Shown piece after piece: positions 47,391-53,687 of a stretch of 55,865 bases of DNA; the first letter of the stretch is position 1; every line of letters starts with the position of its first letter. This stretch comes from Thermotogaceae bacterium (GTDB lineage: Bacteria; Thermotogota; Thermotogae; Thermotogales; Thermotogaceae). Location: positions 1-55,865 of the forward strand of contig JALWSA010000019.1 of assembly GCA_026993805.1 (NCBI GenBank), given 5' to 3'. Made by a program: the position numbers and the translations under genes. Below the pieces are notes generated by a model. That model searched no databases. It saw only the letters and a list, made by a program, of their open reading frames with translations, and was not told the origin of the DNA.

Positions 47391-48386
47391 ATGAGAATCC
47401 TATTCGTGGATCTATATTTCAAAAGGAGCGAAATCAGAGAATATAACTGGAAAATAGGGGGATATGAGCTCGCTCGGGAGCTACTCAAGGAATACCCGAG
47501 CGCTGTTGTTATAGCTCCGGGCCTTCTTACCGGAACGCCCGCACCAACGGGCGGAAGGTATTCCATAGGCGCAACGACCAGAAACGGGATACATATAGGA
47601 AATGTCGGTGGATTCATAGGTGCCTACATAAAAGGTTACGGTTTTGGTGCGATAGTGATCCTCAAGAGCAGTCAGGGACCCATTGTACTTGAATTCGGCC
47701 CCGAAGGAGTCTCCTTTAAAAGCGCTTTCGATCTCTTAGGGAAAAGAGTAAAACAGATCGTCCCGCTTTTGGAGGGAAAAGGCAAAAAATCCATTGTTGT
47801 AGGACCGGCTGGAGAAATGGGGGGTAGAATCTCCGCCGTGGTTGCCGAGGGCTTTCGGATAGTTGGAAGAGGAATGGGTGAGGTTTTCTTCAGAAAAGGT
47901 ATCAAAGCAATGGTTTTCCACCCAAAAGCCGTGGAATTCATTCATCCCATATTCAAAACCGTCGCGAGAAAAATGCGAGAAGGCTTGAGAGCTGTAGAGG
48001 AAGGGGTAAACACGAATCATCCCTGCTACGGTTGTCCCATAAAATGTTTGGCATACGAAAAGCGCGGAAAGAAGGGTGCGGTCAAAGCCCTAAAGGAGCT
48101 GGGAATCCCTGAAGAAGAACACCCTCAGATAATAGAACTCGCCAATGACCACGGAGTTGATCTCTTTGGAGCCGCAATAGTTGCTCGGGAAAGAATCATG
48201 GATGTCAGGGATGTTATAGCTCAGGCCGCAGAAGGCGAGGACTTCGAAGTGGACTATCCTCCAATCCAGAGAGACGATTGGAAGGAATTTTTAGACAGTG
48301 TGGGAATATGCGAATACGCTGCCAAATACATGGAACGTTCGATGATAGAGAAATTGGTCAAAATATACCAGGAATATATGATGTAA
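47391..48386 (+). CDS. Compact aldehyde:ferredoxin oxidoreductase-like protein
   Basis: A 331-residue protein of the AOR family, about half the usual 600 residues. The N-terminal domain is well kept: APGLLTGTPAPTGGRYSIGATTRNG and GNVGGFIGAYIKGYGFGAIVI. The cluster motif CYGCPIKC gives C212, C215, C219. The fourth ligand region LDSVGIC gives C307, matching the D-x-x-G-x-C near the C-terminus of full AORs. In P. furiosus AOR these are C288/291/295 and C494; here the spacing is 88 instead of about 199 residues, so a large part of domain 2 and domain 3 is missing. Tungsten-pterin binding is uncertain. No frameshift is seen. Confidence 0.85.
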   Translation: MRILFVDLYFKRSEIREYNWKIGGYELARELLKEYPSAVVIAPGLLTGTPAPTGGRYSIGATTRNGIHIGNVGGFIGAYIKGYGFGAIVILKSSQGPIVLEFGPEGVSFKSAFDLLGKRVKQIVPLLEGKGKKSIVVGPAGEMGGRISAVVAEGFRIVGRGMGEVFFRKGIKAMVFHPKAVEFIHPIFKTVARKMREGLRAVEEGVNTNHPCYGCPIKCLAYEKRGKKGAVKALKELGIPEEEHPQIIELANDHGVDLFGAAIVARERIMDVRDVIAQAAEGEDFEVDYPPIQRDDWKEFLDSVGICEYAAKYMERSMIEKLVKIYQEYMM

Positions 48387-49478: not shown

Positions 49479-49496
49479 GAAAATGATTGAGTCTTA

Positions 49497-49523
49497 GGGG
49501 CGACGCGACGCGTCGCTCCTTTT
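49497..49523 (+). terminator. Rho-independent terminator after rmlA
   Basis: GGGGCGACGCG-A-CGCGTCGCTCC forms an almost fully paired stem (one G-T pair) followed by TTTT. The innermost pairs must open to make a loop. It separates rmlA from the DtxR operon promoter, which starts 4 nt later. Confidence 0.8.
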
Positions 49524-49526
49524 GTG

Positions 49527-49555
49527 TTAACATATCTTGACCGAAGGAATATAAT
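49527..49555 (+). promoter_or_regulatory. Near-consensus promoter of the DtxR-MoxR operon
   Basis: TTAACA (49527-49532), a 17-nt spacer and a perfect TATAAT (49550-49555), 34 nt before the regulator start. This is the best sigma-70-type promoter in the window. I could not identify an obvious operator dyad overlapping it. Confidence 0.8.
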
Positions 49556-49588
49556 CTGAATTAGCAAAGCCGAAATAAACGAGGTGAT

Positions 49589-50083
49589 ATGGTGAAGCTC
49601 AGTGCTGGCGAGAGAAAATACCTGCTCGGGGTCATATTGACCCTCTCTGAAAACGGATGGACTCGCCTGAAGAAGGTCGCCGACTTCTTTGGCGTGAGAA
49701 TGCCTACTGCGAAAGAATTCCTCGACTCGCTAACCAAAAAAGGACTTCTCGACTACGAAAGACGCGGGTCGATATTTCTAACCAAAAGAGGGCAACAGAT
49801 GGCGGAAAAGGAGAAAAATAAATACGACGTTCTCGTAACTTTCATGACAAGGTGCCTACTCGTTGGGGAGGAAACGGCAAAGAAAAACGCTATAAAGATT
49901 ATGTTCGATTTGGACGAAGAAGTTGCCGAAAGGATGTACGAATTCATAGATTTCATGACTAAATGCCCTTCAAGGCCTGTGTTTATCGAAAAATTCGAAC
50001 AGTTTGTAAAAGACGGAACATATCAGCCCTGTGCCTTCTGTCCAATAGTTAAAAGAGAAGGGGTGAAAGAAAATGACTGTTAA
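49589..50083 (+). CDS. DtxR/MntR-like metal-dependent regulator
   Basis: A 164-residue protein with an N-terminal winged helix (WTRLKKVADFFGVRMPTAKEFLDSLTKKGLLDYERRGSIFLTKRG). A helical dimerisation domain resembles DtxR/MntR (LLVGEETAKKNAIKIMFDLDEEVAERMYEFIDFM). The C-terminus has a CAFC pair plus a terminal cysteine that could bind metal or a cluster. The canonical Asp/Cys/His metal ligands of DtxR are not all clear. ATG 49589 and GTG 49592 are both possible; the GTG has the better 7-nt spacing. It is first of five overlapping genes, so it probably regulates that operon. Confidence 0.82.
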   Translation: MVKLSAGERKYLLGVILTLSENGWTRLKKVADFFGVRMPTAKEFLDSLTKKGLLDYERRGSIFLTKRGQQMAEKEKNKYDVLVTFMTRCLLVGEETAKKNAIKIMFDLDEEVAERMYEFIDFMTKCPSRPVFIEKFEQFVKDGTYQPCAFCPIVKREGVKENDC

Positions 50084-51137
50084 TGAGGCCATGTACCTTG
50101 CATGGAAGATCATGGAAGCGGGAGAGGTGCCTTTGCTTGTCGGACATTTCGGCGTTGGAAAGACAGACCTGATGAGGGAAATAGCTGCCCAAACTGGTAG
50201 AAAGCTTATCATTCTCATACTCTCACAGATGGAACCAGGAGACCTCATAGGCCTCCCTGCAAAAGGGGAAGACAAAACCGTATTTCTCAAACCCGATTGG
50301 TGGCCGGAAGACGGGAACACAATTCTGCTTTTAGATGAGATAAACAGGGCTCACAGATCGATAAGAAACGCCATAATGCAGCTCTTGATAGACAGAAGGA
50401 TACACAATCATGTACTTCCCGAAGGAACCTGGATTGCAGCCGCCATGAACCCACCCGACGACGAGTACGACCAGGCCGAGCTTATAACTGATCCGGCTTT
50501 CATATCGAGATTCTTCATCCTCGAAGTAAATCCGGATCCGGCAGAATGGGTGAAGTGGGCTGAAAAGATGGGAGTGCACGGTAAAGTAAAAGAATTCATA
50601 AAGCAATACCCCGAATTTCTGGCAGCCGAAAGAAACGTATCCATAAGAGCTGACCTAAAACCAAGTCCGAGAAGTTGGTACAAATTAGCGAGAGTATTGT
50701 CCAAACTGGATGAAAAAGACATAGAAAAATACGGTTATACATTGGCGGCAGGAATAGTAGGGCCTGAAGCAGCCAAGGTCTTTCACGATTCATTCCTCAG
50801 CCCAAGCAAGATACCGTCCGTGGAAAAGCTTCTGTACGAAGGTGATTTGGGAAAACTTGAAACCATAGACGATTACAGCTCTCTCATTGTCAGAATAATA
50901 GATTACCTGTCAAACTTGAGCGATTTGAAACTCATACAATTGGAGAAAAACGCGGCCACCGTCGCGGAGAATCTCTCAAAACTCGCAAGGACCATGCCAA
51001 AAGAATCCTTTTACGCTCTGATGAGATTCATTGTGGACAGCTCGGAAAAAGGTGGTCTCACGGGAAAGGTAATGGACAAGCTCCTTTCAAAACTCATGGA
51101 GTATGATGAAATCACGGAGATGGTAAAGGAGTTATGA
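50073..51137 (+). CDS. MoxR-type AAA ATPase
   Basis: A 354-residue AAA ATPase of the MoxR/AAA_5 class. Walker A is GHFGVGKT (K30, T31) and Walker B LLLDEINRAH (D88, E89). The sensor segment TWIAAAMNPPDDEYDQAELITDPAFISRF fits MoxR proteins. MoxR ATPases act as chaperones with VWA-domain partners to insert metals or mature enzymes. It overlaps the regulator by 11 bases and the VWA gene by 4. Confidence 0.92.
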   Translation: MTVNEAMYLAWKIMEAGEVPLLVGHFGVGKTDLMREIAAQTGRKLIILILSQMEPGDLIGLPAKGEDKTVFLKPDWWPEDGNTILLLDEINRAHRSIRNAIMQLLIDRRIHNHVLPEGTWIAAAMNPPDDEYDQAELITDPAFISRFFILEVNPDPAEWVKWAEKMGVHGKVKEFIKQYPEFLAAERNVSIRADLKPSPRSWYKLARVLSKLDEKDIEKYGYTLAAGIVGPEAAKVFHDSFLSPSKIPSVEKLLYEGDLGKLETIDDYSSLIVRIIDYLSNLSDLKLIQLEKNAATVAENLSKLARTMPKESFYALMRFIVDSSEKGGLTGKVMDKLLSKLMEYDEITEMVKEL

Positions 51138-52306
51138 AAAAACTCGAAGATGCCCTGCTCAGCCTTGGAAGAGAATCCCCGTTTTACCTATATGTCCTTT
51201 TAGGAATGAAGAGGGTCAGCACTGATACCGTAAGAACCCTCTCTATGGGATTTTCCAGAAACGGCGACATCATACTCTTTTACAACCCAAAGATAGAGCA
51301 AAAAGACACGAGAATGATAAAGGCTCTCCTCAAACACGAAGTGCTCCACATCATAAACCAGCACTTTCTCATAAAGCCAAAAGATGAAAGGGATAGAAAA
51401 ATTTGGGACCTTGCTATGGACGCCGCTATAAACCAATACATAGAAGAGTTAGACGCTTTCGGAGTCTCTCTCAGCCAGCTCATAGAAGAAGGGCACGGCG
51501 TCGACAACGAGTACATATTCGCGGTTCCGCCGGCAGAGCATCCTGGAGAAACGGCCGAGTTCTATCACGATTGGATGATGAAGAAATTCGAAGAGCTTGG
51601 AAGATTTGACATAGAAGCACTTCCAGATTCTCCGGACCAGCACGACCACATGCAAAACCCGGAAACCTCGATCGACATGATACTGGAGATAACGAAGAGC
51701 AAAATCGGAAAAGCTTTCAACCTCTACGGATCAGACCTTCCATCTGGTGTTCAGAGAATGGTTGAGAAATTTTTGAAAAAGCCTTCCCTCAACTGGCGCG
51801 TGCTCATAAGAAGATTCATGGGAGTCTCTGTGAAAGGTGACAGATACACGACCCCACTCCGACCTAACAGAAGGTACGAAGATCAGCCTGGGTGGAGATA
51901 CGAATACCAGTCTCGGATCGCAGCAGTCGTGGACACATCTGGAAGCATAATAGAGAGCGAGATAAACGATTTTCTATCTGAAATAGAAGGTCTAATGAGA
52001 ATGTTTGACGGGGAGTTACATTTGATACAAGTGGACAACGTTGTGACGTCCGTCTCCAAGTACAGAAAGGGCAAGTGGCAGCAGCTCGAAATAATTGGAG
52101 GCGGTGAGACGGACCTCCAGCCAGCTGTTATTCACGCTGAAGAAACCCTGCGCGTTGAGGGAACGATCGTATTCACCGACGGACATGTCGATGTCCCGGT
52201 TGCTCGGAGAAGGATTCTCTTTGTCCTCTCAAAATTCCACAATCCCGAGTTCAAAAGGGAAGCCATGAGGATGTACGGGCCATCCAGCGTGGCGGTGATA
52301 GAGTGA
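51134..52306 (+). CDS. VWA-like protein with HExxH metallopeptidase-like domain (DUF2201)
   Basis: A 390-residue protein. Residues 1-150 carry a zinc-metallopeptidase-like motif HEVLH (H68, E69, H72) with a downstream WDLAMDAAIN (D96), typical of the DUF2201 N-terminal domain. Residues 260-390 form a VWA-like domain with the metal-site motif DTSGS (D267, S269, S271). The family pairs with MoxR ATPases, exactly as here. No signal peptide is seen. Proteolytic activity has not been generally established for the family. Confidence 0.9.
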   Translation: MKKLEDALLSLGRESPFYLYVLLGMKRVSTDTVRTLSMGFSRNGDIILFYNPKIEQKDTRMIKALLKHEVLHIINQHFLIKPKDERDRKIWDLAMDAAINQYIEELDAFGVSLSQLIEEGHGVDNEYIFAVPPAEHPGETAEFYHDWMMKKFEELGRFDIEALPDSPDQHDHMQNPETSIDMILEITKSKIGKAFNLYGSDLPSGVQRMVEKFLKKPSLNWRVLIRRFMGVSVKGDRYTTPLRPNRRYEDQPGWRYEYQSRIAAVVDTSGSIIESEINDFLSEIEGLMRMFDGELHLIQVDNVVTSVSKYRKGKWQQLEIIGGGETDLQPAVIHAEETLRVEGTIVFTDGHVDVPVARRRILFVLSKFHNPEFKREAMRMYGPSSVAVIE

Positions 52307-53103
52307 ATCTCGGTCCTGGCAGGATAACGGAGAAACTCGAAAACCTTAGGAAAAACCTCGAATTTCTGATGCAGCCTTCCATGCAATTTCTCAATGCCCA
52401 CAGCGAACGGGTCGAAGCTTTCCACAGAGCCGGGGTGGTTCACTGTTTCTCGTGGAATTTTCCCGTTATATTCGTTGTCACTGCAAATTCCGAGACATTC
52501 GCTGCCCTGCTCCTGTCAGATCCTTTCACAAAATCTCCATCACCATACAGAATGAAAATAGACCATGAAAAAGCTTTCGAAGCCTTCGAGAGAGCTTTCG
52601 GGCAGCCGCCATCTTCCGTGCGTTCCGGAATATTTGACCTTCCTCCAAGGACAAGATTTTTAGCCATAAGCTCTTCTGAGTCCTGGCTAAAGAAGTCCCT
52701 TCTTCAGGAAAGCATAAAGGGCACAAAGTTTGTTTCTTTCGCTCAGAGAATGGATGAAGAAACCTTCAGAAAGATCGAACTTTTGAACGGTGCTCAGGTA
52801 ACGGAGCTCGTCCACGCGACCATAGACGATGACGGCCTGCACCTCGCGGTAACGGCCCCCAAATCTCTCCCTGAATCTCATAAAGCTCTATTGTCTGAAA
52901 TGGCAAAGGTCATAAGAGAAAAAATGGGGCTGAAACCCTCCAAACTCTCCAAACTTCCAAACCTTGAAAGGAGCATACTCGCTGTATTCACAGTGAGATT
53001 AGAAGATCTATTCGACATAGATCCATGGGAGCTGGCACGTAGCTTCGAGAGAAAATTGACAGCTGGCTACGAGGCTTTTTTGAAAGGGGTTGAAAGATCT
53101 TGA
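52303..53103 (+). CDS. Unknown protein in the MoxR-VWA operon
   Basis: A 266-residue protein starting at GTG 52303, overlapping both the VWA gene (4 bases) and the protease gene (4 bases). No signal peptide, membrane segment or known motif is visible. The N-terminus is helical (RITEKLENLRKNLEFLMQ), the centre mixed alpha/beta (HCFSWNFPVIFVVTANSETFAALLL) and the C-terminus helical. The tight overlaps make it very likely to work with the MoxR/VWA pair, perhaps as client or adaptor (inference). Confidence 0.75.
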   Translation: MNLGPGRITEKLENLRKNLEFLMQPSMQFLNAHSERVEAFHRAGVVHCFSWNFPVIFVVTANSETFAALLLSDPFTKSPSPYRMKIDHEKAFEAFERAFGQPPSSVRSGIFDLPPRTRFLAISSSESWLKKSLLQESIKGTKFVSFAQRMDEETFRKIELLNGAQVTELVHATIDDDGLHLAVTAPKSLPESHKALLSEMAKVIREKMGLKPSKLSKLPNLERSILAVFTVRLEDLFDIDPWELARSFERKLTAGYEAFLKGVERS

Positions 53104-53687
53104 AGATCTCGACCTTCAGGTTCATAGTTTACATCTTAGCTTCCATACTGCTGATGCCCATAGGTTCTGGAAATACAGGACTTCTGCTCATAATGGCGTA
53201 CTACGCTTTTATGTTCTTTTTAACTCTCCTCTTCATGAAGAGAGACTCCATTCACCTCAAATTTTGGTTTCCCAACATCTGGCCAGGAGTGATAAAAGGT
53301 CTTATTGCCTTTCCGATTCTGGTAGCTTTGAACCTCCTCATGAATTTTCTGTTTCCCGAGATAAAAAACCTGCAGTCTGACACCTCCGACATATCCCAAA
53401 CACTCTTTTTCATAACCGCGATCATGATCGCCCCTGTGGTAGAAGAGATGATGTTTCGCGGATACATACAGGAATACTTCAGAAAGCGCCTCAAAACCGA
53501 ATGGGCGATAGTTATATCAGCGCTAATCTTTTCTCTTTACCACCCCATCCAACTATTCCCACAGGTTCTGGTCATGGGTGTCTTTCTCTCGGCACTGAGG
53601 GAGATGACAGGATCCCTCATCCCCGGCATGATAGCCCATGCAGCGAGCAATGCTGTCGCTTTTATGCAAATAACTTTCTCCTCATAA
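53100..53687 (+). CDS. CPBP family intramembrane metalloprotease
   Basis: A 195-residue membrane protein with about six hydrophobic segments, started at TTG 53100. The three CPBP/Abi motifs are present: EEMMFR (E115, E116, R120), FSLYH (F144, H148) and HAASN (H180, N184). The active site should thus be complete. Family members include Rce1-like CAAX proteases and bacteriocin-immunity proteins. It is the last gene of the DtxR-MoxR operon. The start overlaps the preceding stop. Confidence 0.92.
   Translation: MKISTFRFIVYILASILLMPIGSGNTGLLLIMAYYAFMFFLTLLFMKRDSIHLKFWFPNIWPGVIKGLIAFPILVALNLLMNFLFPEIKNLQSDTSDISQTLFFITAIMIAPVVEEMMFRGYIQEYFRKRLKTEWAIVISALIFSLYHPIQLFPQVLVMGVFLSALREMTGSLIPGMIAHAASNAVAFMQITFSS

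Follow-up and report, generated by a model that had tools for sequence, protein, structure and literature searches.

A five-gene block with overlapping reading frames

The DNA analysed here (the window) is a 55,865-nucleotide stretch, contig JALWSA010000019.1 of assembly GCA_026993805.1, that forms part of a 1.69 Mb Thermotogaceae genome (G000). It carries five plus-strand open reading frames (ORFs), successively overlapping by 11, 4, 4 and 4 nucleotides, that encode a DtxR/MntR-fold regulator, a MoxR-type AAA+ ATPase, a VWA protein, a DUF4895 protein and a CPBP intramembrane protease (Table 1). The middle three genes are co-inherited across the Thermotogota, and the regulator and the CPBP protease are additions in one small Thermotogaceae clade of six genomes (genera g1–g3).

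The coordinates of the ORFs bear out the initial annotation of five genes overlapping by 4–11 bases, as do the score of the predicted promoter and its position directly before gene 1, with 33 bases between its end and the start of the gene, for the near-consensus promoter proposed there. Sites scoring at least 9/12 are not more frequent in the region than chance would give (8 observed versus 7.3 expected from shuffles), and the promoter is credible by its score and position rather than by the count of sites. The g2 homologues share the TATAAT box and where it lies, but not the −35 box. A terminator-like hairpin sits between the promoter and the upstream rmlA-like gene, and this anatomy of overlaps, promoter and hairpin points to a single unit, as first supposed.

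The relatives that share the five-gene block are Thermotogaceae metagenome assemblies. The five-gene order is found in G000, G001, G002, G005 and G008; in G006 a contig ends inside the DUF4895 gene and a piece of the CPBP gene begins another contig. The gene 5' of the block is rmlA-like in g1 and g2 and a 626-residue gene with a transketolase-like start in g3, where the gene 3' of the block also differs. Since the neighbours on both sides change within the clade, the block is a self-contained unit.

Table 1. Features of the five-gene block and its upstream region (window coordinates)
Feature	Coordinates	Strand	Basis
Intrinsic-terminator-like hairpin, 11 bp stem with 8 GC pairs, T-rich tail; ends upstream rmlA-like gene	49496..49520	+	
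Sigma-70-like promoter, TTAACA-17-TATAAT, 11/12	49527..49555	+	promoter scan
Candidate operator of the regulator, GAATTAGCAAAGCCGAAATAA, dyad type AATWAG-N6-CTWATT, directly 3' of the −10 box	49558..49578	+	
DtxR/MntR-fold winged-helix regulator, degenerate metal site, 164 residues	49589..50083	+	Pfam, alignment
MoxR-type AAA+ ATPase, 354 residues; Walker A GHFGVGKT, Walker B ILLLDEINRA	50073..51137	+	Pfam
VWA protein, DUF2201_N + DUF2201, 390 residues; metal-ion-dependent adhesion site (MIDAS) D267-x-S269-x-S271...T326...D349	51134..52306	+	Pfam
DUF4895 (PF16236) protein, 266 residues, GTG start; proposed third component or adaptor	52303..53103	+	Pfam
CPBP (Rce1-like) glutamic intramembrane protease, 195 residues, TTG start; clade-specific addition	53100..53687	+	Pfam, motifs

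Co-inheritance of MoxR, the VWA protein and DUF4895

The MoxR protein matches the AAA_5/MoxR profile of Pfam, carries invariant G27-x-G29-K30, D88-E89 and R146 beside an adjacent VWA gene, and has midasin as its best solved relative by profile (E 9e-18). The VWA protein and DUF4895 were surveyed in 103 Thermotogota genomes, 84 of which carry the VWA protein. MoxR was checked in eight genomes whose record for DUF4895 and the VWA protein is either odd or negative for both, and it travels with the latter, four of the eight having both and four having neither. The two (MoxR and the DUF2201-type VWA protein) are an ancient pair present in most Thermotogota. All five MIDAS residues and the PNRR(Y) hairpin at residues 244–248 are invariant in 35 VWA homologues that include those of Treponema and Bacteroidaceae. 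In the predicted model of the VWA protein, which matches the VWA domain of NorQD (9qhe_G) and the MIDAS of MDN1 among other VWA domains, the hairpin is of low confidence and leads through one strand into the MIDAS. By family analogy, the pair would act in maturation or remodelling, in keeping with the initial annotation.

Gene 4, at first called unrecognised, can be assigned to the uncharacterised DUF4895 family (PF16236; 123.5 bits against a gathering cut-off of 25, E 1.2e-35). The family was detected in 81 of the 103 genomes, and T. maritima was the one genome to have it in a set of 14 named controls; a profile derived largely from Marinitoga and Petrotoga (f9) sequences also recovered a fragment from G101 and a copy with a frameshift from G089. 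In the final tally DUF4895 and the VWA protein are both present in 82 genomes, both absent from 18 and discordant in three. Among genomes at least 90% complete, 70 have both, 10 have neither and one is discordant each way (Fisher p 6e-11, a value that ignores shared ancestry).

DUF4895 lies directly 3' of the VWA gene in six families (f1, f2, f6, f8, f10 and f11), usually with a 4-nucleotide overlap except in f6, where the genes are adjacent. It lies apart in Thermosipho and Fervidobacterium (f3), where MoxR and the VWA gene are also separated from each other, and in f9, where these two are still together in part of the family; despite this dispersal, all three genes are retained in nearly every case in f3 and f9. 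DUF4895 and the VWA protein are absent throughout f4, f5 and f7, as is MoxR in those members searched, and all three genes are missing from G091 (99% complete, 2 contigs). In G087, which belongs to the same genus as G091, they are located at about 551, 444 and 344 kb, some 100 kb apart. The joint loss of three unlinked genes in G091 suggests a shared function, since it would otherwise be hard to explain. Conserved adjacency in six families and phylum-wide co-inheritance uphold the link of gene 4 to the MoxR/VWA pair, and DUF4895 is most likely a third component alongside them. Of the two downstream genes for which conservation beside MoxR/VWA elsewhere was in question, gene 4 shows it but gene 5 does not outside g1–g3.

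Alternatively, MoxR and the VWA protein could be the functional unit, with DUF4895 an independent Thermotogota housekeeping protein that shares an ancestral operon with them. Such independence would account for the dispersed DUF4895 genes of f3 and f9, whose neighbours are unrelated (by eye urocanate hydratase-like and UvrC-like), and for G093, which keeps DUF4895 without MoxR/VWA. However, it leaves unexplained why DUF4895 is missing jointly with MoxR/VWA in f4, f5, f7 and G091, and a single operon deletion cannot explain G091 if the three-locus arrangement of G087 is ancestral. This explanation is considered unlikely, although it retains appreciable weight.

The DUF4895 protein diverges faster than its partners, with 40–42% identity between G000 and its g2/g3 relatives compared with 69–75% for MoxR and 75–81% for the VWA protein. 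Its conserved positions include no obvious catalytic motif, no internal repeat was found by profile and no sequence relative was found in the PDB. An AlphaFold2 single-chain model (19 sequences) is confident, with a mean predicted local distance difference test score of 92.8, and Foldseek gave no significant structural match (best E 0.056), as was also the case for a viral library. A resemblance of residues ∼156–266 to the ARPC2/ARPC4 (Arp2/3) fold was considered and rejected, the VIA-align Z score (up to 6.8, with a root-mean-square deviation of 3.7 over 95 residues) being below the trust level of the tool. A literature search found no paper naming DUF4895. Rapid divergence and the absence of an enzyme-like signature suggest a client adaptor, and DUF4895 is probably a fast-evolving protein of this type, judging from its context and divergence rate. 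In the five-gene block of G005 the DUF4895 frame is broken into ORFs of 132 and 84 residues (G005:C1:3590-4392, L035), through either assembly error or decay.

MoxR–DUF2201 pairs also occur outside the Thermotogota in Treponema and Bacteroidaceae; DUF4895 was not found in the fetched flanks of these pairs (up to 6 kb). Spirochaete MoxR–VWA(DUF2201) pairs (L170:4439-8933 from Treponema bryantii, L169:4346-8396 and L171) are followed by FlhA C-terminal-like (FHIPEP, E 3e-60) and FlhB C-terminal-like (E 1e-10) proteins, third and fourth partners that differ from those in Thermotogota. Because these FlhA/FlhB-tail-like genes follow the pair in Treponema, flagellar export was considered as the sole client and rejected: FlhA does not track the MoxR–VWA–DUF4895 triad, since f11 and Thermosipho g12 have the triad but no FlhA, and f4, most of f5, f7 and G091 have FlhA but no triad. 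Kosmotogaceae have other clade-specific additions, namely an ABC_tran_2-type permease-like protein of 542–558 residues encoded 17–23 nucleotides 5' of MoxR (L155:3243-4868, L158:3196-4869) and, in part of the family, a conserved protein of 149–177 residues whose gene overlaps the end of DUF4895.

The CPBP protease and the regulator in g1–g3

The VWA protein of the window contains an HExxH motif (HEVLH, residues 68–72) within a protein whose PF13203 match is named 'putative metallopeptidase', and the CPBP protein has the complete catalytic motifs EEMMFRG, FSLYH and HAASN (EExxxR, FxxxH and HxxxN), conserved in five g1–g3 homologues. These features would fit a proteolytic system in which MoxR unfolds an envelope substrate for degradation or processing by the HExxH domain and the CPBP protease. 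However, the glutamate of the motif (E69) is replaced by Gln or His in f2, f6, f10 and one g3 genome (L139), and both histidines (H68 and H72) are absent from the Treponema and Bacteroidaceae homologues, whereas the MIDAS is invariant. Since HExxH varies across VWA orthologues, protease activity is not a conserved property of the family, and the initial VWA/HExxH description holds for the window protein but does not extend to its relatives. Outside g1–g3 the CPBP relatives are weaker and unlinked to MoxR/VWA. A proteolytic system is thus distinctly improbable, and the proposed role in envelope quality control, for which the CPBP gene beside MoxR/VWA in a single clade is the evidence, is not supported.

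In g2 and g3 the gene directly 3' of CPBP (L031:9561-11042, L032:5038-6540) abuts or overlaps it and encodes a fusion of a PEMT/ICMT-like methyltransferase region, a PlsC-type acyltransferase and a possible zinc ribbon; in the window, aglA takes this position instead. On the other side of the block, the rmlA-like gene is preceded by a 331-residue ORF (47391-48386) that by eye resembles a short aldehyde ferredoxin oxidoreductase.

By sequence, the regulator comprises a DtxR-type winged helix and a dimerization domain. It scores 40 bits with PF02742 (DtxR C-domain; cut-off 27), 25 bits with PF01325, just below the cut-off of 26, and 43.7 bits with the curated MntR equivalog NF008273, under the cut-off of 153. 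A metal-responsive maturation operon, in which the DtxR site of the regulator senses Fe, Mn or Zn and the regulator induces MoxR/VWA for the metallation of an apo-enzyme, draws on this relationship to the DtxR/MntR family and on the assistance that NorQ/NorD and other MoxR/VWA pairs give to metal insertion (PMC9976466). However, the MntR ligands D8, E11, H77, E99, E102 and H103 correspond to K, L, Y, I, M and F in the regulator (alignment to MntR 6kta), and none of the six is kept in any of the 24 Thermotogales orthologues aligned. Most of these ligands are, by contrast, retained in two DtxR proteins of f5 that were included in the alignment. A second DtxR-family protein is present in most genomes searched, including G000. 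Outside g1–g3 the orthologues of the regulator lie apart from MoxR/VWA: in T. maritima the gene is 5' of two genes that by eye are rpsF- and ssb-like, and in Thermosipho and Fervidobacterium it is followed by a conserved gene for a protein of 76–88 residues (L098:5764-5994; L113:5652-5918), possibly an ancestral partner of the regulator.

The 21 bp dyad 5' of the regulator gene reads GAATTAG-N5-CCRAAWTNA in g1 and g3, is weaker in g2 and takes the form TAATTAG-N5-YCTTATT in Thermosipho. In g3 it lies close to the −35 box, and otherwise it covers the start region. With at most one mismatch it occurs once each in G000, G006 and G008, in all three 5' of the regulator gene, and twice in G002; a reversed control pattern had no matches in these four genomes. 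The dyad reaches p < 0.01 (shuffles) in most upstream regions of g1–g3 and the Thermosipho group, and in the genomes of the latter 4/5 exact matches lie before the regulator, with one-mismatch matches at background level. Control of moxR in trans by the regulator elsewhere was rejected, no operator being seen 5' of the moxR, VWA and DUF4895 genes outside g1–g3. Near-unique and located before the regulator, the dyad fits a dedicated autoregulator that was carried with its own promoter and brought the MoxR block under its control in g1–g3. Cysteines 89, 126, 148 and 151 are invariant in the six g1–g3 sequences, and the regulator would seem to control itself alone, perhaps by means of its cysteines, rather than to be a metal regulator. 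A metal regulon was rejected on account of the loss of ligands and the operator count, the operator being essentially unique to one promoter, unlike those of such a regulon. The metal-responsive operon of the initial annotation, not borne out by these sequences and by the unlinked orthologues elsewhere, is considered very unlikely, and the unit is probably not metal-responsive.

Proposed mechanism and relation to known systems

NorQ/NorD, CbbQ/CbbO and RavA/ViaA likewise combine MoxR, hexameric in those systems, with a MIDAS-bearing VWA protein; they differ from the present set, in which the partner has DUF2201_N as its N-terminal half and DUF4895 is a third component. For NorD it has been proposed that a finger, connected to the MIDAS through one strand, inserts into the pore of NorQ (PMC9976466). 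The MoxR-vWA ternary conflict systems (Kaur et al. 2020, PMC7159879) are also built of MoxR, a VWA protein and a third component. Unlike in these, no effector, STAND, FtsH or β-propeller part was found in the window proteins, the bpMoxR match is below the cut-off, and the Thermotogota set is phylum-wide with mostly vertical inheritance; a defence-system search gave weak domain-level matches only. The regulator shares its winged helix and dimerization domain with the DtxR/MntR metalloregulators, but it is without the canonical metal ligands and is apparently a single-site autoregulator.

The interpretation favoured here, with a probability of about one half, is that the block encodes an ATP-driven machine of three components that remodels (matures) proteins and has gained clade-specific parts. 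By analogy with NorQ/NorD (PMC9976466), the MoxR ring would be a hexamer, plugged by the VWA protein through its PNRRY hairpin, one strand away from the MIDAS. The MIDAS metal would grip an acidic surface of the client, and the gripped client would be remodelled when the ring hydrolyses ATP and so moves the VWA finger. DUF4895, evolving fast, would recruit or position the client and so give specificity. In g1–g3 the set would have come under a formerly stand-alone DtxR-fold regulator whose metal site was lost. This regulator may repress its own promoter through the 21 bp dyad over the transcription start, and its four clade-conserved cysteines could serve in Fe–S, zinc or thiol sensing. Since a membrane protease was added in this clade, the client there, or by-products of it, may be located at the membrane. 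A fuller form, in which DUF4895 is an obligatory client adaptor of a phylum-wide three-part MoxR machine and one clade has it under a metal-blind, cysteine-bearing, single-promoter DtxR offshoot, is tentative, at somewhat less than even odds.

Several observations weigh against this interpretation. Besides the retention of DUF4895 in G093, MoxR/VWA occur without detected DUF4895 in G095 (99% complete) and in G102 (an assembly in 520 contigs), and the co-inheritance clusters along the phylogeny and includes few losses that are independent. As DUF4895 has no clear structural relative, the term 'adaptor' derives from context and divergence rate. The conservation of the regulator cysteines, as seen in the sequences, is limited to six close relatives, and the regulator may have landed ahead of the block by chance rearrangement.

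The MoxR orthologue of T. maritima (G010, taken as strain MSB8; 947,849-948,895, 65% identical) lies where TM0930 is expected from gene numbering and may be that gene, an estimate in which the locus tag is taken from the position. TM0930 gives its name to a MoxR subfamily (PMC11432383, PMC9964418), which resembles the present set in having a MoxR motor beside a VWA protein. The papers found on TM0930 go no further than naming the subfamily; they do not describe DUF4895, the regulator or CPBP as parts, and they assign the subfamily neither a client nor any partner other than VWA proteins. The present machine is of a known kind but has an undescribed third part that spans the phylum, and in one clade a regulator and a membrane protease are added to it. 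For co-purification, co-inheritance singles out DUF4895, and the T. maritima proteins are thermostable and easily handled. The regulator appears to be a case of reuse of a metal-sensor fold after loss of the metal site, which advises caution in equating 'DtxR-like' with 'metal-responsive'.

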